Below, one piece after another: positions 3,328-21,770 of a stretch of 23,768 nucleotides of DNA. How positions within the stretch are numbered: the stretch's first letter is position 1; each line of letters begins with the position of its first letter. Source of the stretch: a virus. The translations under genes were made by a program, and so were the position numbers. The notes beneath the pieces are model-generated. The model did not search any database. It worked only from the letters and a program-made list of their open reading frames with translations, and was not told where the DNA came from. Where the stretch lies: positions 1 through 23,768 of IMG/VR virus record IMGVR_UViG_3300006802_000577, one strand, 5' to 3'.

Positions 3328-5339
3328 ATCTCGACGCAATGACTGATGAAGAAAAAATGGACGCTTTGGATAGAATCCAAGAGTCCATTCGTCAAAATAA
3401 AGAAATTCAGAAGCAAAAAATAGCGGCTAATGTAGATCTAGTTATTCAGGCGCTTAAAAAAATTGAATCTGATATTCAGAGTAAGTATGACGGCGTAACT
3501 GCGGCTATTGAAACGCGTGTAGCCAATATCAAAGACGGCCGCGATGGCCGTGATGGTATTGACGGTAAAAATGGACGTGATGGGCTACCTGGCAAAGATG
3601 GTTTGCCTGGTCCACGCGGCTTAGATGGTAAAGATGGCGTCAATGGGTTAGATGGCGTTGATGGAGTGTCCGTTGTAGACGCTCGCATCGACTTTGACGG
3701 GTCGTTAGTAATTTATCTATCTAGTGGACGCGAGATTAACGTAGGTGAAGTAGTGCCTATGGATCTTGCTGAACGAATAAAAGTTATTACTAATGGCGGT
3801 GGCACATCACAATCTGTTTTAGATACGCTGGCTAGTCTACAGACACAGATTAATAATATCTCTACAGGTAATATAACTAGCATTGCTTCCGCAGACGGAA
3901 GCGTAACTGTTACTAATGTATCTGGTGCAATAGATTTGTCCGTTGCTGTTGCTGCTTCCACTACTAATGTAATTGTTCAAGTACGTAATGTTACAGGCGC
4001 TACGCTTACTAAAGGTACTGTAGTCTATATTAACGGTGTTACAGGCCAAATTCCTACCGTTACTAAAGCCATTGCATCTGCCGATAGCACGTCCGCGCAG
4101 ACTTTAGGTGTTATGTCTGCTGATTTGGCTAATAACTCTAATGGCTATGTAACCATTATTGGCTTAATCACTAACGTCAATACTTCCGCGTATACAGACG
4201 GAGAGCAGTTATATCTTAGCGGTACAACAGCAGGCGCGCTTACTGGTACTAAGCCTTACGCCCCTACTCATCTTGTTTATGTTGCCATTGTTGAATATGC
4301 GCATCCTACACAGGGTAAATTATTCATTAAAGTACAGAATGGATATGAGTTAGATGAGCTACATGATGTAGCGGCTCAAAACCCTAGCAACAATGACATA
4401 ATTATTTATAATTCTACTAGTACATTATGGGAAAAAAGTACCTTAACGGCAGGTACAAATATAAGTGTCACCAAAAATAGTACAACTACTACCATAGGCG
4501 TAACAGGTACATTGCCAATCGCTAATGGTGGCACAAATGCGACAAGTGCTCCGGCAGCAATGGCTAGTTTGATGGGTTTTACTTCAACTGCAACAGCAGC
4601 GGGTACAACCACATTAACCAATACTAGTAGCTACTATCAAGTCTTTACTGGCACAACAACTCAAACGATTGTATTGCCAGTCACAAGCACTCTGGTCACA
4701 GGTTGGACGTTCCACATTTGTAATAACAGCACAGGTGTTTTAACGGTCAATTCATCTGGCGGCAATTTACTTATATCAATTCCGGCAGGCACAACAGCAA
4801 TGTGTACCTGTATTGGTACGGCATTAACGACTGCTGCGGATTGGGAAGCAGGTCTTACTGATTTTAGTACGGCAACAGGTACGGGTAGCGTAGTTTTGGC
4901 TACGTCACCAACGCTGACTACACCAGTTTTTTCTTCTATTGTAAATACGGGAACGCTAACGCTTCCAACAAGCACAGATACATTAGTTGCTCGCGCTACA
5001 ACGGATACGTTGACGAACAAACGCGTAACGCCTCGCGTAGTAACCACAACATCGAGTGCAACGCCAACAATTAATACAGATAACACCGATCAGTATGGCC
5101 TAACAGCGCAAACGGTAGATGTTACGTCGTTCACGACCAACTTGAGCGGTACGCCAACAGACGGTCAAAAGTTGTGGATTTATATTGTTGGAACTGCTGC
5201 TAGAGCAATTACCTGGGGTGCTTCATTTGAATCATCTACGGTAACTTTGCCAACTACTACAGTTACAACAAACCGTTTAGACGTTGGTTTTGTTTGGAAT
5301 GCTGCTACGTCTAAGTGGCGTTGCGTTGCTACAGCGTAA
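3324..5339 (+). CDS. collagen-like tail fibre / adhesin
   Basis: A 671-aa modular virion fibre. Residues 1-70 are charged and predicted helical or coiled-coil, probably the trimerising anchor. Residues 72-114 carry uninterrupted Gly-X-Y triplets, with glycine at every third position 15 times and many KDG, RDG and LPG units, so a collagen-like triple helix is expected. The rest is Thr/Ser/Gly/Asn-rich and low in charge, resembling stacked beta domains. It contains the linker motif LPIANGGTNAT and a C-terminal module (about residues 560-671) of a type common in phage tail proteins, with TNKRVTPRV, TDNTDQYGLTA and SGTPTDGQKLWI motifs. It overlaps the portal stop by ATGA. It probably acts in host recognition or as a virion appendage. 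The receptor cannot be told from sequence. Confidence 0.85.
   Translation: MNLDAMTDEEKMDALDRIQESIRQNKEIQKQKIAANVDLVIQALKKIESDIQSKYDGVTAAIETRVANIKDGRDGRDGIDGKNGRDGLPGKDGLPGPRGLDGKDGVNGLDGVDGVSVVDARIDFDGSLVIYLSSGREINVGEVVPMDLAERIKVITNGGGTSQSVLDTLASLQTQINNISTGNITSIASADGSVTVTNVSGAIDLSVAVAASTTNVIVQVRNVTGATLTKGTVVYINGVTGQIPTVTKAIASADSTSAQTLGVMSADLANNSNGYVTIIGLITNVNTSAYTDGEQLYLSGTTAGALTGTKPYAPTHLVYVAIVEYAHPTQGKLFIKVQNGYELDELHDVAAQNPSNNDIIIYNSTSTLWEKSTLTAGTNISVTKNSTTTTIGVTGTLPIANGGTNATSAPAAMASLMGFTSTATAAGTTTLTNTSSYYQVFTGTTTQTIVLPVTSTLVTGWTFHICNNSTGVLTVNSSGGNLLISIPAGTTAMCTCIGTALTTAADWEAGLTDFSTATGTGSVVLATSPTLTTPVFSSIVNTGTLTLPTSTDTLVARATTDTLTNKRVTPRVVTTTSSATPTINTDNTDQYGLTAQTVDVTSFTTNLSGTPTDGQKLWIYIVGTAARAITWGASFESSTVTLPTTTVTTNRLDVGFVWNAATSKWRCVATA
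3537..3665 (+). repeat. collagen-like Gly-X-Y coding repeat
   Basis: Fifteen glycine codons recur every nine bases without interruption, encoding residues 72-114 of the fibre at 3324-5339. The X and Y positions are dominated by Lys, Arg, Leu and Asp, with three prolines. Charged pairs such as KDG and RDG are known to stabilise bacterial and phage collagens that lack hydroxyproline. The nucleotide repeat is imperfect (GAYGGY, GGYAAAGATGGY), so it is old enough to have diverged. Confidence 0.9.
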
Positions 5340-5527: not shown

Positions 5528-6541
5528 ATGGCAACTAAAACCGTATTACTTACGTCTGGCACAACGTGGACAGTTCCGGCTGACCTTGACACAACGCAGA
5601 CAGTTACTGTTGTTGCTATCGCTGCTGGCGGTGGTGGCGCTAGGCCGACTACTGGTAGAAACTCAAGTGGTGGCGGGGGCGGTGCATGGTCATCATCCGC
5701 TATAACCGTAACTTCTGGCGCAACAGTTTTTTGCTCAATTGGTGCGGCTGGCACTGGTAGTACAACTGCTGGTACAGGTGGAACAGCAGGCGGTGATACT
5801 TGGATTAATAAAGCTGCGAACTCCGCACCCGCAAGTTCGACCAATGGTGCATTAGCAAAAGGCGGCGGCGGCGCTCCTACTAATAATTCCGTTGGTGCGG
5901 GTGGTTTATCTTCAGGCGGCATTGGAACTACTGTTTTTTCTGGTGGCGATAGCGGTGCTAGTAGTGGTAATAGCAATTCAGGTGCTGCCGGTGGCGGTGC
6001 GGCAGGATCATCTTTAGGTAATGGCTTTGCCGGTGCTTCAACTGCTGCAAATACTGCTTCTGGCGGTGGTGGTGGTGGTGGCGTTAAAAGCGCAGGAACA
6101 GCGGCAGCATCAGCATTAAACAGTAATGGCGGTGTAGGCGGTAACACTTTCAGTAATACAGCAGGTGGTGCTGGCGGCACAGGCAGTGCAACTGCCCCAA
6201 CATCAGGAACAGCCGGTACAAATGGCGGCGGCGGCGGTGGTGGTGGTGGTAGTAACGGCGGGAGTACAACAGCAGGATCTGGTGGTACTGGTGGAGCAGG
6301 CTCAGAATATACAATAACCGCAGGTGGTACGGCCGGTTCTGGCGGTGGCGGCGGCGCAGGTGGCGGCGGCTCTAATATTGGCGGTGCTGGCGGTGCTGGT
6401 GGTGGATACGGTGGTGGCGGTGGTGGCGGTGCTGGTGGTGGTACAACTGGCAATGGCGGCAATGGTGGAGCAGGTGCAATTGTTATTACCTACACTGTTT
6501 TAGCTGCTAATACAGGTAACTTTTTCTTACTATTTAAATAA
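5528..6541 (+). CDS. glycine-rich (polyglycine) tail adhesin
   Basis: A 337-aa protein with an N-terminal beta segment (about residues 1-35, ending VTVVAIAAGGGG) of the kind that opens many phage glycine-rich domain proteins. More than 250 residues follow that are dominated by Gly with Ala, Ser, Thr and Asn, including a run of nine glycines. A short hydrophobic C-terminus comes last (about 315-337: VITYTVLAANTG, then FFLLF). Such sequences can fold as packed polyglycine type II helices, as in the T4-like adhesin gp38 of phage S16, where the loops between glycine runs contact the receptor. A receptor-binding role is therefore likely but inferred. It lacks a strong Shine-Dalgarno, and its TAA at 6539-6541 abuts the next ATG. 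The long antisense frame opposite it is a proline-rich shadow. Confidence 0.8.
   Translation: MATKTVLLTSGTTWTVPADLDTTQTVTVVAIAAGGGGARPTTGRNSSGGGGGAWSSSAITVTSGATVFCSIGAAGTGSTTAGTGGTAGGDTWINKAANSAPASSTNGALAKGGGGAPTNNSVGAGGLSSGGIGTTVFSGGDSGASSGNSNSGAAGGGAAGSSLGNGFAGASTAANTASGGGGGGGVKSAGTAAASALNSNGGVGGNTFSNTAGGAGGTGSATAPTSGTAGTNGGGGGGGGGSNGGSTTAGSGGTGGAGSEYTITAGGTAGSGGGGGAGGGGSNIGGAGGAGGGYGGGGGGGAGGGTTGNGGNGGAGAIVITYTVLAANTGNFFLLFK
6224..6250 (+). repeat. GGC/GGT trinucleotide run (nine Gly codons)
   Basis: Four GGC codons are followed by five GGT codons in frame within the glycine-rich adhesin. Shorter GGY runs surround it at roughly 6065-6085, 6340-6370 and 6405-6440. Runs of this kind can gain or lose codons by polymerase slippage without breaking the frame. 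Confidence 0.85.
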
Positions 6542-6781
6542 ATGGATAAAGAACTTCAAAGATACTATGAGGATCGCTTCAGTATGATGGCGACTCAAGG
6601 ATGGAAAGATTTAATGGATGATATTGATAATATGATTGCTCCATTAAACAATATATCCGCTATTCCAGGCGAAAAAGAATTACAATTTAAGAAAGGCGAG
6701 ATGTCAATTTTGACATGGCTGAAAACCTTAAAACAGGCCAGCGAACTTGCTTACGAGGGTTTAAATGAAAAGAATTTATGA
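6542..6781 (+). CDS. small conserved-type structural-region protein, unknown function
   Basis: A 79-aa mostly helical, charged protein (MDKELQRYYEDRFSMM start) with two Trp-containing segments, GWKDLMDDID and TWLKTLKQASE. I do not recognise a named family. Its stop codon context (TAA then ATG, with no good Shine-Dalgarno) suggests reinitiation after the glycine-rich gene. Its 3' end overlaps the next start by 17 bases. Small proteins of this type recur between tail or portal genes and the scaffold in podovirus-like genomes. A minor virion or assembly role is possible but not shown by any motif. Confidence 0.72.
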   Translation: MDKELQRYYEDRFSMMATQGWKDLMDDIDNMIAPLNNISAIPGEKELQFKKGEMSILTWLKTLKQASELAYEGLNEKNL

Positions 6782-6992
6782 ATTTGCCTGCGGGAGTGGG
6801 CAACGCATTGAACGGTTTGTTGATTATGAGACAACAACTGTTGAATGTAAATGCGGCGCTTCAGCCAACCGCATTATATCCGCGCCAAATTTTAACTTAG
6901 AAGGCTGGTCAGGAAATTTTCCAACTGCTTACGCAAAGTTTGAAAAAAGACACGTAGATAAGTTAAAATCGGAGCAAAAGGCGAACAGATAA
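6765..6992 (+). CDS. FmdB-like zinc-ribbon protein
   Basis: A 75-aa protein resembling the small FmdB-type putative zinc ribbon, with an N-terminal IYEFACG strand, a middle V-D-Y-E-T stretch and then CKCG followed by RIISAP. In typical members each knuckle is CxxC. Here the first knuckle shows a single Cys (C9 in ACGSG) and the second is CxC (C28, C30), so only three cysteines are available and metal binding may be altered or shared in a multimer. The C-terminal half is basic and includes NFNLEGWSGNFP. GAGGG six bases before ATG 6765 supports the start. FmdB-like genes are frequent in phage structural regions, with unproven function. Confidence 0.7.
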   Translation: MKRIYEFACGSGQRIERFVDYETTTVECKCGASANRIISAPNFNLEGWSGNFPTAYAKFEKRHVDKLKSEQKANR

Positions 6993-10475: not shown

Positions 10476-11138
10476 ATGACCTTTCTTGATATGGTTAATG
10501 ATGTGCTTGTGCGTTTACGCGAGCCTATTGTCATTACTACTTCCGATACTCCTTATTCAAGTCTCATAGCCTCGATGGTTAGGGATGCAAAAGTACAGGT
10601 AGAAGATGCGTTTTCATGGAACGCACTTGGTACATATTCCGTAGTAAATACTGTGCCTGGAGTTTCCGAATATATATTAGAAAATATCGGATCAAAGTTT
10701 CAGATAACAGACGCTATAAATGCTACGTCAAACCTTGGCTTAGTACAGATACCATTCGCAACAATGAATAGGTACTTAAATTTTAGCGCATCTGCAACAG
10801 TACAAGGTATTCCACAGTTCTATAACATTGATGGCCTTGATCCGTATTCAACTTTTTACGACGTAAAATTTAACGTCTATCCAATACCAGACGCGGTGTA
10901 TTCCCTTAGATTTTCTCTTATAGCCCCGCAGGCTGATTTTGCGAATGATTACATTGTTCCATTAGTTCCTAGTAAATTGATTGTTCAAAACGCGTATGCG
11001 CGTGCTTTGGTTGAGCGGGGCGAAGATGGCGGCCTAAATTCATCAGAAGCGTACGCGTTGTATAAATCAATGCTAGCTGACTATATTGCTTTAGAAGCTA
11101 CGCGCACTCCAGAAAATATGGAGTTTATTGCGGTATGA
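10476..11138 (+). CDS. T7 gp11-like tail tubular protein A / head-tail adaptor
   Basis: A 220-aa protein that should form the adaptor ring between portal and tail nozzle. It fits the gp11-like adaptor family by length, by an N-terminal helix (TFLDMVNDVLVRLREP), and by the pattern of a V-A-F-W-x-ALGT segment. It also ends in the long helical hairpin of this family (ASLIV-like SKLIVQNAYARALVERGEDGG). The RBS-like AGGGCAAAG lies inside a TAATAGGG element a few bases before the ATG. It is followed, with an ATGA overlap, by the gp12-like gene, the canonical order in podoviruses. Confidence 0.88.
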   Translation: MTFLDMVNDVLVRLREPIVITTSDTPYSSLIASMVRDAKVQVEDAFSWNALGTYSVVNTVPGVSEYILENIGSKFQITDAINATSNLGLVQIPFATMNRYLNFSASATVQGIPQFYNIDGLDPYSTFYDVKFNVYPIPDAVYSLRFSLIAPQADFANDYIVPLVPSKLIVQNAYARALVERGEDGGLNSSEAYALYKSMLADYIALEATRTPENMEFIAV

Positions 11139-12694
11139 GCCAGCCAATTGAAATTTCTAGCATTTCAGCGCCAGGTTTTTATGGGCTGAATACGCAGGAT
11201 TCGCCATTAGATTTGGCGGCTGGCTTTGCTCTTACCGCAATGAATTGCGTTATTGATCGTTATGGACGTATTGGCGCTCGTAAGGGGTGGGAAAAAGTAA
11301 ATTCTGCGGTAGGCGCAGCGTCAGGCATAGATATTGAAGTAATACATGAGCTAATTCAAGCTAACGGTACTCTTACAATTTTATTTGCAGGTGGTACTAA
11401 GCTATTTAAGTTAGATACTAGCAACGCCGTAGTACAGCTCACTTACGGGGGCGGCGGTACTGCCCCAGTTATAACGGCTAATAATTGGCATTGCGCATCA
11501 CTTAACGGTATTACATACTTCTTTCAGATAGGGCATGATCCGCTTATCTATGATCCTGCGGTAAGCACTACTACTTATCGCCGCGTATCTGAAAAGACAG
11601 GCTATGTAGCTACAGTTCAAAACTGTAATGTCTGCATTTCAGCTTATGGTCGCTTATGGGCTGCTAACACCTCCACTGTTAACAATACCGTTTATTTCTC
11701 TGATCTCCTAGCTGGACACATTTGGACAACGGGTACGTCGGGATCTTTAAATCTAGCTAATGTATGGCCTAATGGTCCTGATGAAGTTATTGGATTAGCC
11801 GCGCATAACAACTATTTGTTCATATTTGGTAAGCGTCAAATTCTTGTCTATAGCGGAGCTACAACTCCAGCTACTATGACGCTAGCAGATACAGTAGGGG
11901 GTATTGGATGTATCGCGCGCGATTCAATTCAAAATACGAATACTGATGTAGTATTTTTATCAAATAGCGGTGTTCGGTCTGTTTTGCGCACTATTCAAGA
12001 AAAATCTGCTCCATTCCGCGACCTTAGTAAAAATGTCCGCGATGATCTGATGCGGTATGTATCCGCTGAAATCTTAAGTGATGTAAAAGCTGTATATTCC
12101 GAAAAAGACGCGATGTATATTTTGGCGCTGCCAGTGTCAAAAATTTCATACGTATTTGATACCCGTGGTTCGTTACAAGATGGAGCTTCACGGGTTACCA
12201 CATGGGATACCATTAATCCAAAGGCTTTACTATCGCGTAGAAACGGCGATTTATTGTTTGGCAAGACTGGCTATATAGGCAAATACGGATCATATTTAGA
12301 CAATACGTCTTCCTATCGCCTTAGCTATTTTACAAATCATGCTGATCTAGGCGATCAAAACATAACCTCTTTACTTAAAAAAATAACTATTGTTGTTATT
12401 GGTGGATCAAATCAGTATGTAACGATTAAATGGGGTTTTGACTTTAGCACCAATTATGTTTCGCAAAACGTAAAAATTCCTGCACAATTAGTAGCAGAGT
12501 ATGGCATAGCAGAATATGGCAGTAATAGCACCGTTATCGCAGAATATGCGGGTGGCATATCACTTAACACTTTGCATGTAAATGCTTCTGGATCTGGAAA
12601 GATCGTGCAAACAGGATATGAAGCGGATGTGAACGCATTTGCTATATCCATTCAGAAAATTGAAATACAAGCCAAACATGGCAAGATAAATTAA
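11135..12694 (+). CDS. T7 gp12-like tail tubular protein B / tail nozzle
   Basis: A 519-aa beta-rich protein that should form the tail nozzle under the gp11-like adaptor. The N-terminus GLNTQDSPLDLAAG, then ALTAMNCVIDRYGRIGARKGW, is characteristic of P22 gp10/T7 gp12-type nozzle or stabilisation proteins. Propeller-like repeats follow, with GRLWAANTS, NNYLFIFGKRQILVYSGA and a DVVFLSNSGVRSV blade. Three AEYG-type units (AEYGIAEYG, then IAEYAGG) occur near residues 450-472. Some proteins of this type bind cell-surface polysaccharide as well as fibres. It starts inside the adaptor gene by ATGA, with GGAG eleven bases upstream, and ends eight bases before the fibre gene. Confidence 0.87.
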   Translation: MSQPIEISSISAPGFYGLNTQDSPLDLAAGFALTAMNCVIDRYGRIGARKGWEKVNSAVGAASGIDIEVIHELIQANGTLTILFAGGTKLFKLDTSNAVVQLTYGGGGTAPVITANNWHCASLNGITYFFQIGHDPLIYDPAVSTTTYRRVSEKTGYVATVQNCNVCISAYGRLWAANTSTVNNTVYFSDLLAGHIWTTGTSGSLNLANVWPNGPDEVIGLAAHNNYLFIFGKRQILVYSGATTPATMTLADTVGGIGCIARDSIQNTNTDVVFLSNSGVRSVLRTIQEKSAPFRDLSKNVRDDLMRYVSAEILSDVKAVYSEKDAMYILALPVSKISYVFDTRGSLQDGASRVTTWDTINPKALLSRRNGDLLFGKTGYIGKYGSYLDNTSSYRLSYFTNHADLGDQNITSLLKKITIVVIGGSNQYVTIKWGFDFSTNYVSQNVKIPAQLVAEYGIAEYGSNSTVIAEYAGGISLNTLHVNASGSGKIVQTGYEADVNAFAISIQKIEIQAKHGKIN

Positions 12695-12702
12695 GGATTG
12701 AT

Positions 12703-13608
12703 ATGACAGACTACGTAAAATCCACTGATTTTGCTGCTAAAGATGCTCTTACATCTGGTAACCCATCTAAAATTGTTAGAGGTACTGAGATTGATACGGA
12801 GTTCAATAACATTGCTATTGCTATTGCGTCTAAGCTAGAAACAGTTAGCGGCGGTACAGTAGTTGGACCCGCATCATCAACAAATAACGCGCTCACTAGA
12901 TACAATGGAACAACAGGCAATCTATTAAAGGATAGCCCCGCTATTCTTAGCGATGCTGGCGCGTTATCCGGCGTTACTATGTCTGCTGCGGTAATTACAT
13001 CAGGTACGCTTGCTGAAGCTAGGCTTCCTACTACTTTTACCACTACTAAAACTTTTACAGGCACTGTCGGAATTGGTGCAGCTAATCCGTCTGGTGGTAA
13101 TTGGAATCTTTACTGTAAAAATCTTACGACTAACCCTGGCGCAGTATTTTTTAACGATGACACTACTGCATGGGCGCAAATTAACGTAGTTGCCACAGGT
13201 AAAACGCAATTAATCTTATTTCAAAAGTCTGCTACCTCTAGCGTTACTGGTACAAAGACTGACGTTGGATCTATCACAACATCAGGTTCCTCCACGTCAT
13301 TTAATACCTCATCTGACTACCGGCTAAAAACAAATATTACGCCTATGACGGGGGCTATCGCTCGCATAAAGAATTTAGCTCCTGTTCGGTTTAACTGGAT
13401 AGCAGAGCCTGAATTAGCGGCGGTAGATGGGTTCATTGCGCATGAAGTAGCCGATGTTGTACCAGAAGCAATTAGCGGAAGTAAAGACGCGGTTTATCCT
13501 GACGGAAAAATTAAGCCACAAGGAATTGACCAAGCTAAACTAGTGCCATTACTAGTTGCTGCGTTGCAAGAAGCTATTGCACGTATTGAAGCATTGGAAG
13601 CAGCATGA
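12703..13608 (+). CDS. tail fibre with C-terminal S74 self-cleaving chaperone domain
   Basis: A 301-aa fibre. Residues 1-45 (MTDYVKSTDFAAKDALTSGN, then EIDTEFNNIA) are a widely conserved podovirus virion-anchoring start. The middle is Thr/Ser/Gly-rich. From residue about 200 comes the peptidase S74 intramolecular chaperone, with S204-DYRL-K209 forming the Ser-Lys dyad spaced as in phage endosialidases. NWIAEPEL, GFIAHEV and a C-terminal coiled coil (LLVAALQEAIARIEALEA) follow. In the family the domain drives trimer folding and then cuts itself off, so the mature fibre here would be only about 203 residues. AAGGATTGAT precedes the ATG. The stop overlaps the cupin start as ATGA. Confidence 0.9.
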   Translation: MTDYVKSTDFAAKDALTSGNPSKIVRGTEIDTEFNNIAIAIASKLETVSGGTVVGPASSTNNALTRYNGTTGNLLKDSPAILSDAGALSGVTMSAAVITSGTLAEARLPTTFTTTKTFTGTVGIGAANPSGGNWNLYCKNLTTNPGAVFFNDDTTAWAQINVVATGKTQLILFQKSATSSVTGTKTDVGSITTSGSSTSFNTSSDYRLKTNITPMTGAIARIKNLAPVRFNWIAEPELAAVDGFIAHEVADVVPEAISGSKDAVYPDGKIKPQGIDQAKLVPLLVAALQEAIARIEALEAA

Positions 13609-13937
13609 ACGTAGATAAGGCGCTAGTAGAAATTGGCGGCGACGTTACTCATCATTTTTCGGATGGGTTGTACGCTAAAGAATTCTTTGTGCCAAAAGAT
13701 GCTGCTGTGATGAAGCATACCCATGATTTTAGCCACTTGTCTATTCTTGCTAAAGGTAGGGTTGTAGTAAAGAAAGGCGATAGCCTTGAGATCATTGAAG
13801 CGCCTGCGTGCATAGAAATTAAAGCGGGTATTGAACACGGTATTAAAGCTATTACAGACTGCGTTTGGTTTTGCATTCATGCTACGGATGAAAAAGATCC
13901 TAATAAAGCAGACGCTATTTTAATAAAAGGAAATTGA
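13605..13937 (+). CDS. cupin-fold protein with all-histidine metal motif
   Basis: A 110-aa protein with a single cupin barrel. Motif 1 reads H38-T-H40, three residues, H44, six residues, then G51, so the usual glutamate ligand of cupins is replaced by H44. Motif 2 has G75 and H78. The four histidines could hold Fe, Zn, Ni or Mn. Strand pattern and length fit small stand-alone cupins. The start overlaps the fibre stop as ATGA with GGAAG upstream, so its synthesis is tied to that of the fibre. Substrate and activity are unknown. Options include sugar or amino acid modification, or a purely structural beta-barrel bound to the tail. Confidence 0.8.
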   Translation: MNVDKALVEIGGDVTHHFSDGLYAKEFFVPKDAAVMKHTHDFSHLSILAKGRVVVKKGDSLEIIEAPACIEIKAGIEHGIKAITDCVWFCIHATDEKDPNKADAILIKGN

Positions 13938-13938
13938 T

Positions 13939-15156
13939 ATGCCAATCATGGGCGCAATTATCGGCGGCGGTTTAGGGTTAATTGGCAGCAGCATGTCTGC
14001 TGGCTCTGCTAGAGACGCCGCAGAAGCAGACGCGCGAGCGCGAATAGAAGCCGCACGTATTGCAGCCGAAGAAGCGCGTTTTAGACCAGTAGGTATTACA
14101 TCGCGTTTTGGCAAAAGTACGTTTGAGTTTGGCATACCAGGCGTTACCGCACCTACTATTGACCAATTCAAGACACGCGAACAGCAATTAGCTGACGCGA
14201 TGAAAGATTATCGCCCTTCGTCTCAATATTACGCTCCAGGAATTAATGGGGCTGGTGGAGCGCCTACACTTTCTCAATTTAAAACCCCTGAAGAACAGTT
14301 AGCTGAAGCGACGAAAGCGTATGAATCGCGGTTATCAAGCGAAGGTCGTTTAATTGGGGCTGGATATGAATTAAGTCCAGAAATGAAAGCCTTGCAAGAC
14401 CGTTTAATGGGTCTTACTACGCAAGGTCTTACTGACGCAGAAGGTGCGGCGGCTCGATATCAGCCTTTACGTGAAGCAGGGCAAAGTTTATTTGATCTTG
14501 GTAAGCAATACTTAGCTCAAAGTCCAGAAGAAGTTGCGGCTAAATATATGGCGCAACAGCAAAGTCTTTTAGCCCCTAGCCGCGAACGTCAATATGCTGG
14601 CCTGCAAAACCAGTTATTTAATACTGGGCGCGCTGGATTAGCAGTCGGTGGAACAGGAGAGCGACCAGATGGTACAGCCGGTTTAGCTGCGGCTAATCCT
14701 GAGATGGAAGCATATTACAACGCGCTGGCGCAACAAAACGCTACGCTTGCAAGCGAAGCACAAAAACGAGGGCAGGAAAATCTTGCTTTTGGTACGACGT
14801 TGTACAACACTGGTGCGGGTTTACTAGGTGGCTACGATACGGGCGTTACAGGTGCTCTGTCTCCATTCAGTTCCTATTTAAGCGGTGCTACTGGACTTGA
14901 GTCATTAGGCCAGCAACCGCTTACATTAGGTTCGGAATTAGGTGGACGTGCAGCCACAGCAGGCGGTAATGTAGGAAATTATTTGATGACTGGAGGTACT
15001 GGGGCTGCTGCTGCTATAGCTCGTACTGCTGGACTTAATCCAACGGCTGACTTTATATCCGGTTTATCGTCTAATAAACAACTAACTGGTGAATTAGGTG
15101 GATATTTAAGAGGACTTTTTGGTGGTGGTAGTTCTACTTCTGCTTTTATACCGTAA
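13939..15156 (+). CDS. internal virion / DNA-ejection protein (first of three)
   Basis: A 405-aa protein that is probably packed in the capsid and ejected with DNA, comparable in place to T7 gp14. It opens with a glycine-rich hydrophobic helix (GAIIGGGLGLIGSS, residues 5-18), a candidate membrane-inserting segment. An Ala/Arg/Glu helix and the motif FRPVGITSRFG follow; similar arrangements recur in podovirus internal proteins. Residues 71-91 and 108-128 are an internal duplication with the pattern APT-xx-QFKT-x-E-x-QLA-x-A-x-K-x-Y. The remainder is Ala/Gln-rich and helical, turning Gly-rich toward the C-terminus. AAAGGAA upstream supports the start. The ejection role is inferred from position and composition. 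Confidence 0.78.
   Translation: MPIMGAIIGGGLGLIGSSMSAGSARDAAEADARARIEAARIAAEEARFRPVGITSRFGKSTFEFGIPGVTAPTIDQFKTREQQLADAMKDYRPSSQYYAPGINGAGGAPTLSQFKTPEEQLAEATKAYESRLSSEGRLIGAGYELSPEMKALQDRLMGLTTQGLTDAEGAAARYQPLREAGQSLFDLGKQYLAQSPEEVAAKYMAQQQSLLAPSRERQYAGLQNQLFNTGRAGLAVGGTGERPDGTAGLAAANPEMEAYYNALAQQNATLASEAQKRGQENLAFGTTLYNTGAGLLGGYDTGVTGALSPFSSYLSGATGLESLGQQPLTLGSELGGRAATAGGNVGNYLMTGGTGAAAAIARTAGLNPTADFISGLSSNKQLTGELGGYLRGLFGGGSSTSAFIP
14149..14322 (+). repeat. duplicated 21-residue motif within internal virion protein
   Basis: The protein at 13939-15156 carries two copies of APT-xx-QFKT-x-E-x-QLA-x-A-x-K-x-Y, at residues 71-91 and 108-128, encoded at 14149-14211 and 14260-14322. The spacing between copies is 37 residues. 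The DNA copies have diverged at third positions, so the duplication is not recent. Confidence 0.8.
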
Positions 15157-15165
15157 GGAACAATC

Positions 15166-16500
15166 ATGGCACAAAGCGAAATTCTAGGGTTGTTCACGAC
15201 GCCTGAGCAGTATCAACAAATGCAGCAAATGCAGCAACAGCAAATGGCTGCTGATTATGCTGCCCGTAGTCCCGAGCAACAAATTCGTTATGGTGCGTAC
15301 TCTGCTGGTCAACAGTTTGGCGGCGGTTTAGCAGGCGCGTTAGGCGCGCAAGACCCGCAGCTAAAAATCATTGCGCAACGTCAGGCGTTGTCTAAACAAA
15401 TCGACCCTGCTGATCCTGAGTCGATTATGAAAGCCGCTAACATTGCTGCACAAAGTGGCGATCAGCAGTTTGCTATGACGTTAGCAGAGTACGCACGTAA
15501 AGCGCAAAGTGAAATGGCTTTGGCTACACAACGTGGGCAAGAAAAACTTACGCCTGAAGATCGTAACGCTAAGGCATACGCACTTACTAAAGGTTTTCCT
15601 GGTAGTGAAGAATACGCTAACGCGTATCAAGAAAGGTTAACCGCACTTACTGTAAAAGGTAAAGAAGATAAAACGCCTGAATGGAGACAAAAACAGGAAG
15701 AATTATTTTTACGTAAAGGGCAACTTCGCACGTTAAAGAAAAATGCGCCAGACGATCCATTTATAAAAGATTTGGAAGACGAAATCAGACGGCTAGAAGG
15801 TGGCGCTGAAAAAACACCTACGTTTGGCGCTGAAAGAGAAGCTAAAGCTAGAAGTGAATTTGGAAAACCGTTTAACGAATTAACGCAACCACAACAAAAA
15901 GAAGTTGAAAAACTTGTTGAGGCTCGACAAACGGCTACGACGCCTAAAACTACAATTACCAATGTATTGCCAGGTCAAAAAGCATTGGTAGACATCCCTA
16001 AGTTTAGGCGCGATGTTCAGCAAACTATTGACCCGCAAATTAAAACTGTTACGGCAGCGGATCAGGCATTGCAAGCTATCAATGATTCGTTAGCTACTAA
16101 CAACTTCGCGTCGTTCCGTGCTGGACAGACGCAATTTGCGCGGGCTATTTCTGGTTCAGGCGATTTAAGTCAAAAAGAACTTAAAGCAGCGGGTGCTGAC
16201 CCTTCACTGTTAGGGGGGACTGCGGATTACATTTCCAGTTTGTTTACTGGAACGCCTACCCCAGATACGCAGAAAAAGATTCGCGCTACGTTACTAGCTA
16301 TTAAAAAGGTTGCTACCGCAAAAGCTAACGCTGAATTGATGCAGCAGCGTAAACTTGCGGAACGGGCTAAATATTCGCCAGAGGATATTGACGCTGCGCT
16401 TAACTTTCCTGAGTTTAGCGCCCCCGCTGTTTCCATCCCTAAAGGTAAAACAGTTACGCGTACGCTTAAAAGCGGAAAAGTTGTCACAGTTGAGGAATAA
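15166..16500 (+). CDS. internal virion / DNA-ejection protein (second of three)
   Basis: A 444-aa, very hydrophilic and helical protein with no clear catalytic motif. The N-terminus is Gln/Met-rich (YQQMQQMQQQQMAADYAA). A short glycine patch near residues 48-60 (GGGLAGALG) and Ala/Gln/Lys/Glu helices follow, then a Pro/Thr-rich linker around 260-275. The C-terminus is basic (KGKTVTRTLKSGKVVTV). Placed between two other proteins of similar style and downstream of the tail genes, it corresponds to the T7 gp15 position. AAGGAA lies upstream of the ATG, nine bases after the previous stop. Its role in the internal core or in DNA ejection is inferred. Confidence 0.75.
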   Translation: MAQSEILGLFTTPEQYQQMQQMQQQQMAADYAARSPEQQIRYGAYSAGQQFGGGLAGALGAQDPQLKIIAQRQALSKQIDPADPESIMKAANIAAQSGDQQFAMTLAEYARKAQSEMALATQRGQEKLTPEDRNAKAYALTKGFPGSEEYANAYQERLTALTVKGKEDKTPEWRQKQEELFLRKGQLRTLKKNAPDDPFIKDLEDEIRRLEGGAEKTPTFGAEREAKARSEFGKPFNELTQPQQKEVEKLVEARQTATTPKTTITNVLPGQKALVDIPKFRRDVQQTIDPQIKTVTAADQALQAINDSLATNNFASFRAGQTQFARAISGSGDLSQKELKAAGADPSLLGGTADYISSLFTGTPTPDTQKKIRATLLAIKKVATAKANAELMQQRKLAERAKYSPEDIDAALNFPEFSAPAVSIPKGKTVTRTLKSGKVVTVEE

Positions 16501-16502
16501 TA

Positions 16503-19130
16503 ATGCCGACCTATACCATTGATGGAAAGCGGTACACTAGCGATACGCCGTTGTCAGACGCGGAATTGGAAGAACTATCGGGGGGTGCTCCTGCTGGTGA
16601 TTATAGAGCCGAAGCAGCGCGTAAAGGGTTAGCTGGTACGGCAGGTACAACGGCTGGCGTTGGGCGTGTTATTTCTGATTTACTTACTAGTGCTAACATA
16701 AATCCAATTACACTTGCATCGCGTACTGCTGGTTTGCCTGCGGAAGCGCCTAGTGTATCTATTCTTGAATCATTTAGAAAAGGTCGTTCTGCGGTTTATG
16801 ATCCTTTAATGAGTTTGTTTGGTTCTACTGGCGCGCAACCACAAACAGGCGGAGAACGCTTAGTAGCAGGTGGCATTGAAGCAGCTACCTCGCCTGAAAG
16901 TTACTTATTTCCTCCATTAGCAGGTATTCGCCGAATGGGGCCTGCTGCTCAAGCATTGTTGCGTCCTTCTGAACAAGCGGTGGTTGGCGCTGGTGCTGAA
17001 GGCGGTGGACAAGCCGGTGAGTATGCAGGGGGTAAATTTGGTTATCCAGGTACAGGCAGATTTGTCGGCTCTTTAGTAGGTGGAGCAGGCACAGCCTACG
17101 GTACAGGAACGGCGCTTAAAACAGGCGCGTTAGTTAACAAGGCTGTGGACTATGCTAAGAATAAAGTTGGCGTTTTAACTGGGGTAGAGCCTAAAGATGA
17201 ACTATTGCGCGATGTAAATTCGCGTATCAATAATATCTTTATTGCTGCTGGCGCTGCTGACCCTAATTTTATCGACACACTTGAAAAAGCAGTTAAGGCA
17301 CAACAAAGCGTGTCGCTCAAAGCGCCTGGTGCTCCGGCAGTTGAAATGCCGCTTAGTTCGTTGCTGGCTAACAATCCGGTTATCAATAACTTTATTCAAA
17401 ACTTGTCTTCGCGCGATCCTGTATTTCGCGCGCAGTACGGCGCGCAATTTGAACAAGCTAAACAAGCATTAGCGCAAAATCAAATTCGTTTGTTTGGCGA
17501 CCCAACAAAAGTTAAGCTAGAAGTAACCCCAATTAATTTGGCTAAGGTACAAGAACGTAAACTTCGTTCGTTAGATGAACAGATTGCGGACGCGTACAAC
17601 AAACAAGAAGTTGATCCAAATGTGTTTGGTCAACGAGTGTCTACTTTGCTTGCTAAGAAAGAAGAAGACGCACGTAAAACAACTAGCCCGTTGTACACCG
17701 AAGCGTTTACGATTGCTAAAGACAAAGGCGTAACGCTTCCTGAAGCGGCGGTGGACGACATTTACAACTATGTTGTTGCGTCCAAAGATGCCGACGTATT
17801 TCGCACGTTTAAGCCTATTTTTAATAAGGTAGAGCGCGTATTCAAGCCAAGCGTCACGCCACCTAGCTCCATTCTTACGGCAGGCGGTAAGCCAATGACA
17901 GAAGGCGGCGCTCGATTTTCAGCGGCTACAGTTGAAGATTTGGATTCGCTCAAACGCGAGATTAATTCAGCTTTGCGTAAAACCAATACTGACTCTGAAA
18001 TTCGTTTATTGTCAGATCTTAAATCCCGCGTAGCAAGTCATATTGATAGCCTTGATCCTGATTTTGTAACGGCGTATAAAAACGCAGACAAAGCGTATCT
18101 GGAAAAAGTTGGTTTGCCGTTTAATAGCGCCACGTTAAAAAACGTAGACCGTAAAAAGTTTGTCGAGCAAATTGCGCCAGCCATTATTGGTAATAAGTCT
18201 AACGTCTTAGATTTTGTAAACGCAACAGGTGAAGAAGGCGTCAAAGTTGTACGTGATGCGTTTTACGATAGCTTTAGTAAAGCCGCATTAAAGAATGACG
18301 TAATTGACCCCAAGGCGGCTAACAAATGGCTGGCTAAAAATTCTAGCGCCATGTCATTAGTACCAGGGTTGACCGATGAGTTGCGCGGTTCGGTCAATAA
18401 TGTGCAGGCGCTATTAGCTAAACGTAATACGCTTAATTCTGAATTTGAACGAGTAGCGGGCGAGCAAATAGTTAGAAAAGAAGGTTTAACTAACCCGCAA
18501 GAGTTAGTCAATCGTATGTACGGCGACGTTAAGTTTACCAATAAGTTCATGAGCCAATATGGCGCAGACAAAGACGCGGTAAACGCTGCTAGATCATTTA
18601 TGTTGCAAGATATTGTTAATTCAGGCGATCCCGTAGCTTTATTAACTGACCGTAACAAAGCTGCGGTTTTTAACCGCGTGTTCGGTCCTACTTACGCGCA
18701 AAAAGTTGCTGACTTTGCGACCGTATCAAATCGTTTGCAAAAAGATTTGACTGACGTGTCATTTAGGGGTGAAACCGTACCAAAAACGCCTATTGAGCAA
18801 TTAACAGGCGTGCCACCAGAGCAAATTATTTCGCGTATTTATAACCCTGTATCTGGCCCTGTCTATGCTATGACTTCTTTGTTCAGTAAATATTGGGCAA
18901 ATGCTGCGGCTAAAGGTACGGAAGAAAAGTTAAAGGCGCTGCTGCTAAACCCTAACGACGCGCTTAAAGTATTTCAAGCTGTTGAATCACAAACCAAAAA
19001 GTTTGACCCTAAGAAAATTGAAGACGCGGTTGCCATAGGTAAAAAATATGGCATTCAATGGATTAATGATGCGGTAAACGATCTTCAGTCTGGCGCGGCA
19101 CGCGGCGCGATACAGGGTATGGAGCAGTAA
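16503..19130 (+). CDS. large internal virion / DNA-ejection protein (third of three)
   Basis: An 875-aa protein, the longest in the window. Its N-terminus (YTIDGKRYTSDTPLSDAEL, residues 4-22) is a short domain seen at the front of other large phage virion proteins. Residues about 165-215 are Gly/Ala/Tyr-rich and hydrophobic, and could insert into membrane. The rest is long helical segments with frequent Lys and Glu. I see no lytic transglycosylase (E-S-x-x-x-P-x-A) or other peptidoglycan-hydrolase motif, unlike T7 gp16. GAGGAATAAT gives a good Shine-Dalgarno. By place and size it is the ejection-channel protein, which is inference. A 19-base spacer follows to the next gene. Confidence 0.78.
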   Translation: MPTYTIDGKRYTSDTPLSDAELEELSGGAPAGDYRAEAARKGLAGTAGTTAGVGRVISDLLTSANINPITLASRTAGLPAEAPSVSILESFRKGRSAVYDPLMSLFGSTGAQPQTGGERLVAGGIEAATSPESYLFPPLAGIRRMGPAAQALLRPSEQAVVGAGAEGGGQAGEYAGGKFGYPGTGRFVGSLVGGAGTAYGTGTALKTGALVNKAVDYAKNKVGVLTGVEPKDELLRDVNSRINNIFIAAGAADPNFIDTLEKAVKAQQSVSLKAPGAPAVEMPLSSLLANNPVINNFIQNLSSRDPVFRAQYGAQFEQAKQALAQNQIRLFGDPTKVKLEVTPINLAKVQERKLRSLDEQIADAYNKQEVDPNVFGQRVSTLLAKKEEDARKTTSPLYTEAFTIAKDKGVTLPEAAVDDIYNYVVASKDADVFRTFKPIFNKVERVFKPSVTPPSSILTAGGKPMTEGGARFSAATVEDLDSLKREINSALRKTNTDSEIRLLSDLKSRVASHIDSLDPDFVTAYKNADKAYLEKVGLPFNSATLKNVDRKKFVEQIAPAIIGNKSNVLDFVNATGEEGVKVVRDAFYDSFSKAALKNDVIDPKAANKWLAKNSSAMSLVPGLTDELRGSVNNVQALLAKRNTLNSEFERVAGEQIVRKEGLTNPQELVNRMYGDVKFTNKFMSQYGADKDAVNAARSFMLQDIVNSGDPVALLTDRNKAAVFNRVFGPTYAQKVADFATVSNRLQKDLTDVSFRGETVPKTPIEQLTGVPPEQIISRIYNPVSGPVYAMTSLFSKYWANAAAKGTEEKLKALLLNPNDALKVFQAVESQTKKFDPKKIEDAVAIGKKYGIQWINDAVNDLQSGAARGAIQGMEQ

Positions 19131-19806: not shown

Positions 19807-19976
19807 TTTGTTTGCTGACAATGTCGCTTGTGTTTGTCATCGCAATTCCTGTATTGGGTTTTATGTATATGGATATGAATAACGCAACAGTCGCAGCAGT
19901 GCGCGAAATTCGTAAGATGCGAGCTATACAAAAAGAACATGAGTTAGAAAGGGCTCAGCACAATGATAATAAGTGA
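19716..19976 (+). CDS. small single-span membrane protein overlapping two neighbours
   Basis: An 86-aa protein with a basic N-terminus (RRSMDGLRVRVPK) and one long hydrophobic span (about residues 27-50, WALLICLLTMSLVFVIAIPVLGF). A charged helix follows (AAVREIRKMRAIQKEHELERAQ). The positive-inside rule places the N-terminus in the cytoplasm. It starts 91 bases inside the previous gene in another frame, with a strong AAGGAG, and ends 14 bases inside the endolysin gene. Being immediately upstream of the endolysin, it could be a holin or antiholin. Other candidates at 20739 and 9391 make this uncertain. No family is recognised. Confidence 0.7.
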   Translation: MDWRSPFRRSMDGLRVRVPKNDGNVPWALLICLLTMSLVFVIAIPVLGFMYMDMNNATVAAVREIRKMRAIQKEHELERAQHNDNK

Positions 19977-20586
19977 ATCGCAGCTACGACAAATGTTGCC
20001 GCGCAATAAATATGTTACTCATTGGCATCACGCGCTATCTGTACTACTGCCTGACTACGATATCAATACCGCAGACCGTATAGCCGCATTTGTAGCGCAA
20101 TGCGCGCATGAATCCGGCGGCTTTGAAGTTCTGAAAGAAAACCTCAATTACAAACCACTTGCGCTTCGCAGATTGTTTCACAAATACTTTCCCACTGATG
20201 AACTCGCAAACCAATACTGCGCAAAGCCCAACAAACAAGAAGCCATTGCGAACCGCATCTACGCTAATCGTATGGGCAATGGTGATGAGTCTAGCGGTGA
20301 TGGCTTCCGTTTTTGTGGCCGTGGTCTTATCCAACTCACAGGCCGTAGCAATTACCAGTCATTCGCAGACAGTCTTGAGATGAGCATCAACGACGTGCCA
20401 GAGTACCTGGCGACGTTTGAGGGTGCGGCGCAAAGCGCATGTTGGTTTTGGGAGACGAATAAATTAAACAGATTTGCTGACGCGAACGATATTAAGGGTT
20501 TAACGCGCGCGATCAATGGTGGCTTTATTGGACTTGAGGATAGGATACATCACTATGAATTGGCTAAAGCTATTATGCGTGGTTAG
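19963..20586 (+). CDS. endolysin, glycoside hydrolase family 19 (chitinase-like)
   Basis: A 207-aa enzyme expected to cut the glycan strands of peptidoglycan in the periplasm at lysis. It shows the GH19 signatures: the catalytic acid E50 in CAHESGGF, a likely second acid E59 in KENLNYKP, and RFCGRGLIQLTGRSNY at 116-131. The later segments ACWFWETNKLNRFAD and TRAINGG (substrate cleft) are also present. There is no signal peptide, so it needs a holin to reach its target. No separate binding domain is attached. The start is supported by AAAGGG about ten bases upstream. It overlaps the preceding gene by 14 bases and the following lipoprotein gene by 32 bases. Confidence 0.95.
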   Translation: MIISESQLRQMLPRNKYVTHWHHALSVLLPDYDINTADRIAAFVAQCAHESGGFEVLKENLNYKPLALRRLFHKYFPTDELANQYCAKPNKQEAIANRIYANRMGNGDESSGDGFRFCGRGLIQLTGRSNYQSFADSLEMSINDVPEYLATFEGAAQSACWFWETNKLNRFADANDIKGLTRAINGGFIGLEDRIHHYELAKAIMRG

Positions 20587-21150: not shown

Positions 21151-21306
21151 ATGAAGAAACTTATCGCGCTACTTTGCCTGATCTCGTTTAACGCCTACGC
21201 CGGTGGCGAGATGAAGAAAGTCTGCCACATGGAAGGCAAGAAAGAAGTCTGCAAGACGATCAAAGTCCACAAGAAACTAGAAGGCACGAAAGTACCGCCA
21301 AAATGA
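21151..21306 (+). CDS. secreted 51-aa protein
   Basis: The ATG at 21151 gives a Sec signal peptide (MKKLIALLCLISFNAYA, cleavage after A17). About 34 very basic residues follow, with two cysteines (KKVCHMEGKKEVCKTI) and a Lys-rich end. A longer in-frame ORF starting at 21100 is rejected because it would put the signal internally and overlap the holin-like gene. The mature peptide has a His-bearing, possibly metal- or disulfide-linked loop. Comparable short secreted basic proteins sit next to spanins in related phages. Its role in lysis, such as peptidoglycan or outer-membrane destabilisation by charge, is inference. The stop overlaps the Rz start as ATGA. Confidence 0.78.
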   Translation: MKKLIALLCLISFNAYAGGEMKKVCHMEGKKEVCKTIKVHKKLEGTKVPPK

Positions 21307-21770
21307 ACCCGTGGCTAATCGTCGGGTTTGTAGTGGCCGTTTGCGGCGCTTTTGGCACTGGCTATTGGCGTGGCGATACGGCTGGTCAGGCTAAAATCCA
21401 GCAAGAATGGGATAAAGAAAAGGCTATTCAATACGCCGAGTATGCCAAAGGCCAGGCCGCAGCGCGGGAAAAAGAACAGGCGCTACAAGCTAACGCAGAC
21501 ACGTTACGACAGGAGAAAGATCGTGAGATTAAGAATATTAGCGCTCGCGCTGCCGCTTTGTCTAACAGCCTGCGCAACAGGCCGGAGCGCCCCACCAATA
21601 GCGGTGGAGTGTCCGAAACCGCCAGTGCTGGATCACATAGTTGTACCGGAGCAGAACTCTCTCGACAGGATGCAGAATTTCTTATCGGGGAAGCTGCCCG
21701 AGCCGACGAATATCGCGCCGCCCTCAAGCAATGCTATACCCAGTACCAAGCCTTGATGCCTTCTCCTTGA
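21303..21770 (+). CDS. Rz: inner-membrane spanin Rz (i-spanin)
   Basis: A 155-aa protein with an N-terminal signal-anchor (PWLIVGFVVAVCGAFGTGYW, residues 3-22). A long periplasmic coiled coil follows (about 25-90: EWDKEKAIQYAEYAKGQAAA, then EKEQALQANADTLRQEKDRE). The C-terminal part contains two cysteines, which lie in SHSCTGAEL and KQCYTQYQ. With the outer-membrane lipoprotein Rz1 it bridges the periplasm and fuses the two membranes at the last step of Gram-negative lysis. The nested Rz1 frame confirms the call. Its end overlaps, on the other strand, the gene at 21724-21936 by 47 bases. Confidence 0.93.
   Translation: MNPWLIVGFVVAVCGAFGTGYWRGDTAGQAKIQQEWDKEKAIQYAEYAKGQAAAREKEQALQANADTLRQEKDREIKNISARAAALSNSLRNRPERPTNSGGVSETASAGSHSCTGAELSRQDAEFLIGEAARADEYRAALKQCYTQYQALMPSP
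21511..21516 (+). promoter_or_regulatory. ribosome binding site for Rz1
   Basis: AGGAGA six bases before GTG 21523 defines the Rz1 start. Starting at the ATG of 21352 would bury the lipoprotein signal at residue 58, which is implausible for an outer-membrane lipoprotein. Confidence 0.8.
21523..21756 (+). CDS. Rz1: outer-membrane spanin lipoprotein Rz1, nested in Rz
   Basis: A 77-aa lipoprotein read in the +1 frame entirely inside Rz, beginning with GTG. The signal is VRLRILALALPLCLTAC with lipobox LTAC, so the mature protein starts at C17. The mature part is proline-rich (SAPPIAVECPKPPVLDHIVV), as expected for Rz1, and carries one additional Cys. A nested Rz1 with lipobox is the hallmark of two-component spanins. 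The non-ATG start and tight Shine-Dalgarno fit a low, matched expression level. Its 3' end (21724-21756) is also coding on the opposite strand. Confidence 0.92.
   Translation: MRLRILALALPLCLTACATGRSAPPIAVECPKPPVLDHIVVPEQNSLDRMQNFLSGKLPEPTNIAPPSSNAIPSTKP

Follow-up and report, generated by a model that had tools for sequence, protein, structure and literature searches.

Phage cupins annotated as tail proteins are already catalogued, and the gene analysed here is a variant, carrying four histidines, of one such poorly understood family. Its product matches three PHROG profiles, 24280 (“tail fiber adhesin,” E 9.8e-21), 12032 (“short tail fiber protein,” E 9.2e-18) and 34170 (E 1e-10), and the PHROG category of the matched family is “tail”; we know of no test of the adhesin function named for 24280 and 12032. 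The annotated phage relatives resemble the gene in sequence and, in 13 of 15 records, in position, within the late structural operon and ahead of a gene encoding 150–275 aa. They differ at the histidines, all four of which are found in Xanthomonas phage Mallos alone among the 15. The copy in Shewanella phage X14 is annotated “putative structural protein.” A passage in PMC8703784 likewise concerns a podophage cupin with a tail-protein annotation, the “short tail fiber” of Ralstonia phage phiAP1 with its RmlC-like cupin domain, stated there without experimental validation; the likeness is one of description. Besides that passage, we found no paper on this cupin family in the open-licence literature. 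A preliminary description of the locus had supposed that a stand-alone cupin tied to a fibre was an undescribed system, which holds in part: little else was found in print, yet PHROGs contains the family and the passage on phiAP1 mentions a cupin tail fibre.

Two proteins of solved structure offer comparisons for the histidine site. TM1459, the manganese cupin of Thermotoga maritima (PDB 1vj2, 5wsd), has the same fold, and its HSHPWEH and NEIH segments align with HTHDFSH and GIEH of the phage family, so that in the sequence alignment the four histidines of our cupin fall in TM1459-equivalent positions (the TM1459 ligand numbers being taken from mutant names in PDB titles). It differs in being a cellular protein with about 15–19% structural identity, and it is matched in sequence at E 0.004 by the family profile and at E 0.11 by the single sequence. 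Among PDB sequences, the family profile matches CelOCE best (PDB 9bwf, E 1.2e-5), a cellulose-oxidising enzyme according to its PDB title, which has the fold in common but carries Gln where the third ligand would be (HTHPYEQ).

By position, the described counterparts are P22 gp14 and T7 gp13, which lie, like the cupin gene, between tail proteins and the first ejection protein (gene orders gp26-gp14-gp7 in P22 and gp12-gp13-gp14 in T7). Genes in this position are poorly understood, and Pfam names the two DUF2824 and “probable scaffold protein” (PF11090), respectively. Neither has a Pfam match to cupins, and at E 0.1 our cupin matches neither DUF2824 nor PF11090; the idea that P22 gp14 is itself a cupin was rejected, DUF2824 being its sole Pfam match. 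PDB searches returned acetyltransferases alone for T7 gp13, at a non-significant E of 0.39–0.40, and a putative glyoxalase for P22 gp14 (E 0.008), which is a weak hint; we do not claim that either protein is an acetyltransferase. Relatives of P22 gp14 were uninformative, as the best 80 of 474 are 94–100% identical.

The window, by which we mean the whole stretch of DNA analysed, is a virus record of 23,768 bases. Its cupin gene and surroundings are as follows.

10476..11138, + strand: SU10-type head-tail adaptor (Pfam SU10_adaptor, E 2.4e-9)
11135..12694, + strand: nozzle or head-closure-like protein, 519 aa (PHROG 5107, named amidase, E 1e-28; also PHROG 3287, “virion structural protein,” E 1e-15, and PHROG 578, “head closure Hc3,” E 2e-10)
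12703..13608, + strand: tail fibre, 301 aa, with an N-terminal domain common to sister viruses and a C-terminal S74 chaperone (Pfam, PHROG, sister loci)
13312..13470, + strand: Peptidase_S74 domain of the fibre, residues 204–256 (Pfam E 3.5e-11)
13605..13608, + strand: ATGA, the cupin start codon overlapping the fibre stop codon (sequence, recurring in the window clade)
13605..13937, + strand: the cupin under study, 110 aa (ORF, Pfam, PHROG, predicted structure, PDB folds)
13716..13736, + strand: motif 1 codons for H38 (13716-13718), H40 (13722-13724) and H44 (13734-13736) (sequence, window-clade alignment, alignment with HSHPWEH of TM1459)
13836..13838, + strand: codon of the fourth histidine, H78 (sequence, within the stretch aligned with NEIH of TM1459)
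13939..15156, + strand: probable ejection or internal virion protein, 405 aa (position, and spacing, as it starts 1 nt past the cupin stop)
15166..19130, + strand: probable further internal virion proteins of 444 aa (15166-16500) and 875 aa (16503-19130) (position, related ORFs following in sister loci)

The preliminary description had read much of this correctly from the sequence: the cupin ORF is present, it shares four bases with a fibre gene that does carry an S74 domain, and its motif has His in place of Glu with four histidines in all. As a fold, the product is weakly recognisable from the single sequence, while the predicted structure is clearly that of a cupin double-stranded beta-helix barrel. 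Cupin_2 and AraC_binding were the sole families listed in a Pfam scan at E 0.1, and the Cupin_2 score of 21.5 bits is below the curated cut-off of 27.2; Cupin_2 was matched at E 0.01 or better by 30 of the 73 members of set A1. The AlphaFold2 model (mean pLDDT 88.1, pTM 0.79) is a compact 110-aa barrel, and the 50 matches listed by Foldseek against the PDB have E 3e-6 to 2e-5, fold matches to cupins being obtained from both Foldseek and VIA. The matches listed include the small bacterial enzymes KdgF and DddK, as well as the cupin domains of CENP-C and Mif2, which are non-enzymatic; no virion cupin of solved structure was among the 50 matches listed in each PDB structure search.

Relatives were collected from IMG/VR, where a first scan gave at least 591 confirmed viral relatives. 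The best 80 of these were analysed and, together with the window, make up the 81 loci that we call the window clade; the peptide pattern KHTHDFSH was one of six used in that scan, and the window-clade loci were chosen by overall similarity. The wider set of 275 loci, with 199 distinct cupin domains, comes from scans that include distant phage-protein seeds and from 15 annotated phage records. These scans keep the best matches, and proportions among the 275 are not population frequencies; L204 was dropped, its match being to a SET part alone, and VPMS1 and BA3 are each present twice.

The ATGA overlap between fibre and cupin recurs in 59 of the 81 window-clade loci. In 13 others the upstream ORF ends about 80–160 nt before the cupin (L021, L049, L052, L053, L055, L058, L059, L063, L065, L068 and L073-L075), so that the overlap is not a constant feature. 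An upstream ORF in the window clade matched HNH/NUMOD3 endonuclease models. As to whether the pairing of a cupin with an S74 fibre is found in other phages, the expectation of the preliminary description was borne out for the fibre and failed for its tip. Matches to the N-terminal domain of the fibre are found in 75 of 77 sister loci; among 80 upstream proteins (window included), Pfam assigned the tips to Gp10_C in 52, to S74 in only 5 and to gp53-like in 2, the rest matching none of these, and phmmer found S74 upstream of the cupin in 4 of 80 loci. S74 was on these counts rejected as the true partner, and its link to the cupin is incidental. Because the tips differ while the N-terminal domain is shared, the tip has been exchanged and the cupin has remained in place. 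Among the sister loci, the cupin has a median identity to the window of 73.5%, compared with 54% (adaptor), 69% (nozzle-like protein), 65% (fibre, across 17% of its length), 57% (downstream protein) and 41% (the protein after that); the loci were chosen by cupin similarity, which inflates cupin conservation relative to its neighbours.

The consensus of cupin motif 1 is G(X)5HXH(X)3-4E(X)6G, and a motif 2 completes the pair. In the window cupin, motif 1 reads H38-T-H40-D-F-S-H44-x6-G51, that is, HxHx3Hx6G with His replacing Glu, and H78 is the fourth histidine; the leading Gly is missing here and is found in several sister sequences. All 81 window-clade loci, which represent 62 distinct coding segments, have His at all four positions, with codons that alternate silently between CAT and CAC. 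Median dN/dS for the window-clade cupin is 0.07 (1013 of 1891 pairs with usable dS), a rough estimate with synonymous sites close to saturation. Because the motif is kept in every locus, its codons vary silently and dN/dS is low, it is not a chance resemblance, and judged from the coding sequences the four-His site is maintained by purifying selection in this clade.

Family-wide, all four histidines are present in 111 of the 275 loci and 73 of the 199 distinct domains; the 111 comprise the 81 window-clade loci, 29 of the 33 from the VPMS1-seeded scan, and phage Mallos. In a tree of 63 representatives the four-His sequences fill one side of a single branch with support 100/99, in a topology that rests on 98 columns, so that inner forks are often unsure, and that places Mallos on a long branch; rooting was by midpoint, and gain versus loss of the site thus has no direction. 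C90 and H92 are at 100% across 72 distinct four-His domains. As these domains were selected for four His, the invariance of the four ligand columns among them is by construction, and the independent evidence for His conservation lies in the tree and in the codon analysis of the window clade. The other clade shows patterns such as RHHR, KHHR, QHHV and HQHM at the ligand positions; R25, G51 and W88 are still 98–100% conserved outside the four-His clade, and this sister clade mostly retains the gene in the same slot. The full site is dispensable elsewhere in the family, though the protein persists, and since the sister clade works without it, the core role need not be metal-dependent. Loss of the ligands in homologues, which the preliminary description had named as evidence against its reading, is therefore seen for the full set across a large sister clade, but in none of the 81 window-clade loci.

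As far as contigs extend, the window-clade genes encode, in order, the adaptor, the 519-aa nozzle-like protein, the fibre, the cupin and the proteins of 405 and 444 aa. The tightest spacing of the cupin is to the gene downstream, tighter than on the fibre side: the next ORF of at least 80 aa begins exactly 1 nt after the cupin stop in 79 of the 81 loci, and the two with no downstream ORF (L035 and L039) both end six bases past the cupin. Searched against PHROGs, 57 downstream ORFs from the whole family gave 27 matches to phrog_598, 13 to phrog_21132 and 2 to phrog_4287, all named for DNA ejection; the sets overlap and amount to at least 29 distinct ORFs, in a sample that omits L087 and L091 for their differing context and includes a few ORFs (e.g., L246, L260, L244) resembling wrong-frame ones. 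In VPMS1, BA3, VvAW1 and 234P9 the gene after the cupin is annotated as DNA injection or ejection, and in Rhodoferax phage P26218 and Sphaerotilus phage R1 it matches DNA ejection or internal virion families, those of R1 being named “internal virion protein.” The 405-aa protein of the window itself matched no PHROG and no Pfam family, and in a profile comparison only its N-terminus resembled DNA-ejection proteins, weakly (probability 66.6 across 38 columns); for this reason we infer its ejection role from its place. Exceptions to the order are Alteromonas phage R8W, with the cupin between RNA polymerase and head-tail connector, Mallos, which keeps the four His with the cupin in the replication region, and L123, L113 and L200, with a terminase-like ORF upstream (by eye).

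Links to protein-modifying enzymes appear among the relatives. At least 72 of the 275 loci have a SET-like motif C-terminal to the cupin, a lower bound given that the regular expression misses L086, L131, L234, L236, L237 and L240, and none of the 72 has the four His. Such fusions occur in many of L131-L200 and several of L231-L241, examples being L133:4019-4870 and, in phage P26218, L086:7896-8771. Pfam SET was found in 33 of 36 fusions scanned; the other three, including the L133 protein that we folded, had no Pfam SET match at E 0.01. A profile of the fusions matched KMT2A (E about 1e-9) and vSET (1.6e-6) in the PDB, and one fusion was modelled as a cupin plus a SET domain (pLDDT 92.6), with both folds among its structure matches. 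Residues N225, H226 and N231 of the SET part are invariant and Y266 nearly so; we take these four to be SET hallmark residues.

Within the four-His loci beyond the window clade (Mallos not counted), the upstream ORF is an Asp/Asn-hydroxylase-like gene in 19 of 29. The test protein, from L103, matched PF05118 at E 3.9e-7, and the PF05118 cut-off was exceeded in 9 of 12 searched records of this hydroxylase-bearing type. The cupin–hydroxylase pair is also present, in both gene orders and each time ahead of an ORF of ejection-like appearance (by eye), in three of seven bacterial-genome contigs, those of Variovorax boronicumulans NBRC 103145, Paraburkholderia kirstenboschensis LMG 28727 and a betaproteobacterial MAG. 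Loci with a hydroxylase-like gene beside a four-His cupin are L102-L109, L114-L122, L125 and L130, and L360, L361 and L363. PF05118 was absent from all 12 window-clade records searched, and SET from all 24 records searched, those 12 among them; the theme of protein modification therefore comes from the relatives.

The best-supported statement about this family is that it is a conserved tail/ejection accessory gene in which the barrel persists whether or not the full metal-type site does. For the window, we favour, with a probability of about 0.5, a cupin that serves as an accessory factor of the tail/ejection module, is metal-dependent here and probably acts on virion proteins. Its gene would sit immediately ahead of the first ejection-type gene in podovirus-like phages, the position of P22 gp14 and T7 gp13. 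In the window clade the barrel retains four histidines arranged as in TM1459, and a divalent metal (Mn, Fe, Cu, Ni or Zn) is therefore most likely bound there. The action of the cupin would fall during assembly and be directed at a neighbouring virion protein, foremost the first ejection-type protein downstream and next the fibre, and could be either a metal-dependent, catalytic modification or a metal-stabilised chaperone-like contact, after which the cupin might or might not be retained in the virion. That the metal form modifies or stabilises a neighbour is suggested by the TM1459-like ligands, by the SET fusions of the other clade and by the hydroxylase pairing in relatives, and the latter two suggest that genes in this position help to prepare virus particles.

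The chief alternative is a purely structural role, a serious possibility although clearly below even odds. Here the barrel would dock in the tail or at the needle, and metal, where present, would stabilise the fold or oligomer. Such a part would account for a gene that mostly stays in its slot even in loci lacking the full His set, and for R25, G51 and W88 at 98–100% outside the four-His clade; the PHROG category, the annotation of the X14 copy, and the presence of CENP-C and Mif2 among the fold matches agree with it. It leaves unexplained, however, the retention of four His across the whole window clade, as well as the SET fusions and hydroxylase neighbours of the relatives. The names “tail fiber adhesin” and “short tail fiber protein” in PHROGs and GenBank, and the adjacency to a fibre or needle gene, would instead fit a receptor-binding short tail fibre or adhesin, which we consider improbable: the names are annotation behind which we found no experiment, the cupin evolves slowly (dN/dS about 0.07) while the adjacent tip is exchanged among S74, Gp10_C and gp53-like forms, and the model is a compact barrel of 110 aa.

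Nor do we give much credence, indeed very little, to a host-directed auxiliary metabolic enzyme, for example a sugar isomerase, even though the fold is close to the small bacterial enzymes KdgF and DddK, since the gene is fixed in position beside fibre and structural genes. One bacterial family (that of G024) was searched with the four-His-clade profile at E 1e-10, and 6 of its 399 genomes had a match, members of other branches being among the matches; the cupin is therefore uncommon as a host gene in that family, and by eye its surroundings in the named bacterial contigs are phage-like. Neither as adhesins nor as host metabolic genes, then, should these cupins be read. Returning to the accessory factor, a broader form of that reading is tentative and on balance doubtful: the gene before the first DNA-ejection protein of short-tailed phages would be a conserved “modification slot,” occupied by mutually unrelated protein-modifying factors, which would chemically ready ejection or fibre proteins ahead of their entry into or passage across the host envelope. 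Candidate occupants would be the four-His cupin, the cupin-SET lysine methyltransferase, the cupin with its Asp/Asn hydroxylase and perhaps the P22 gp14 and T7 gp13 proteins. A family with metal-type, SET-fused and hydroxylase-paired members makes the modification of ejection and tail proteins by phages directly testable. The ejection-gene link, the cupin-SET fusions and the hydroxylase pairing may surprise specialists, and we found no mention of them in the open-licence literature.

A second family of four-His phage cupins was reached from one genome match (L371), which led to 18 IMG/VR loci, HxHxxxH being present in all; members of the family (L371, L374-L391) lie in what look like tail-region neighbourhoods. 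By profile the family is homologous to the four-His clade (E 4e-20), with a CIHA-type motif common to both, and two queries against 50,697 phage records found no member at E 1e-3. Judged by eye, most of its cupins come after fibre-like or small tail-region ORFs, and a scan of three such ORFs gave no Pfam match. A 2OG-Fe(II) oxygenase adjoins the cupin in three of six loci scanned, L391 also having a tryptophan halogenase; the six were partly picked by eye, some for neighbours that looked like oxygenases.

Elsewhere in the window, a 671-aa protein (3324-5339) with a collagen triple-helix repeat (Pfam E 8.5e-8) precedes a Gly-rich protein (5528-6541), and the virus may have a second fibre region here. 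A 75-aa protein of the late operon (6765-6992) contains a short Cys-containing stretch that looks zinc-ribbon-like by eye. Further downstream lie a GH19-type chitinase or endolysin (19963-20586, Pfam E 4.1e-7) and an ORF that is spanin-like by eye (21303-21770) and encloses a second ORF in a different frame.
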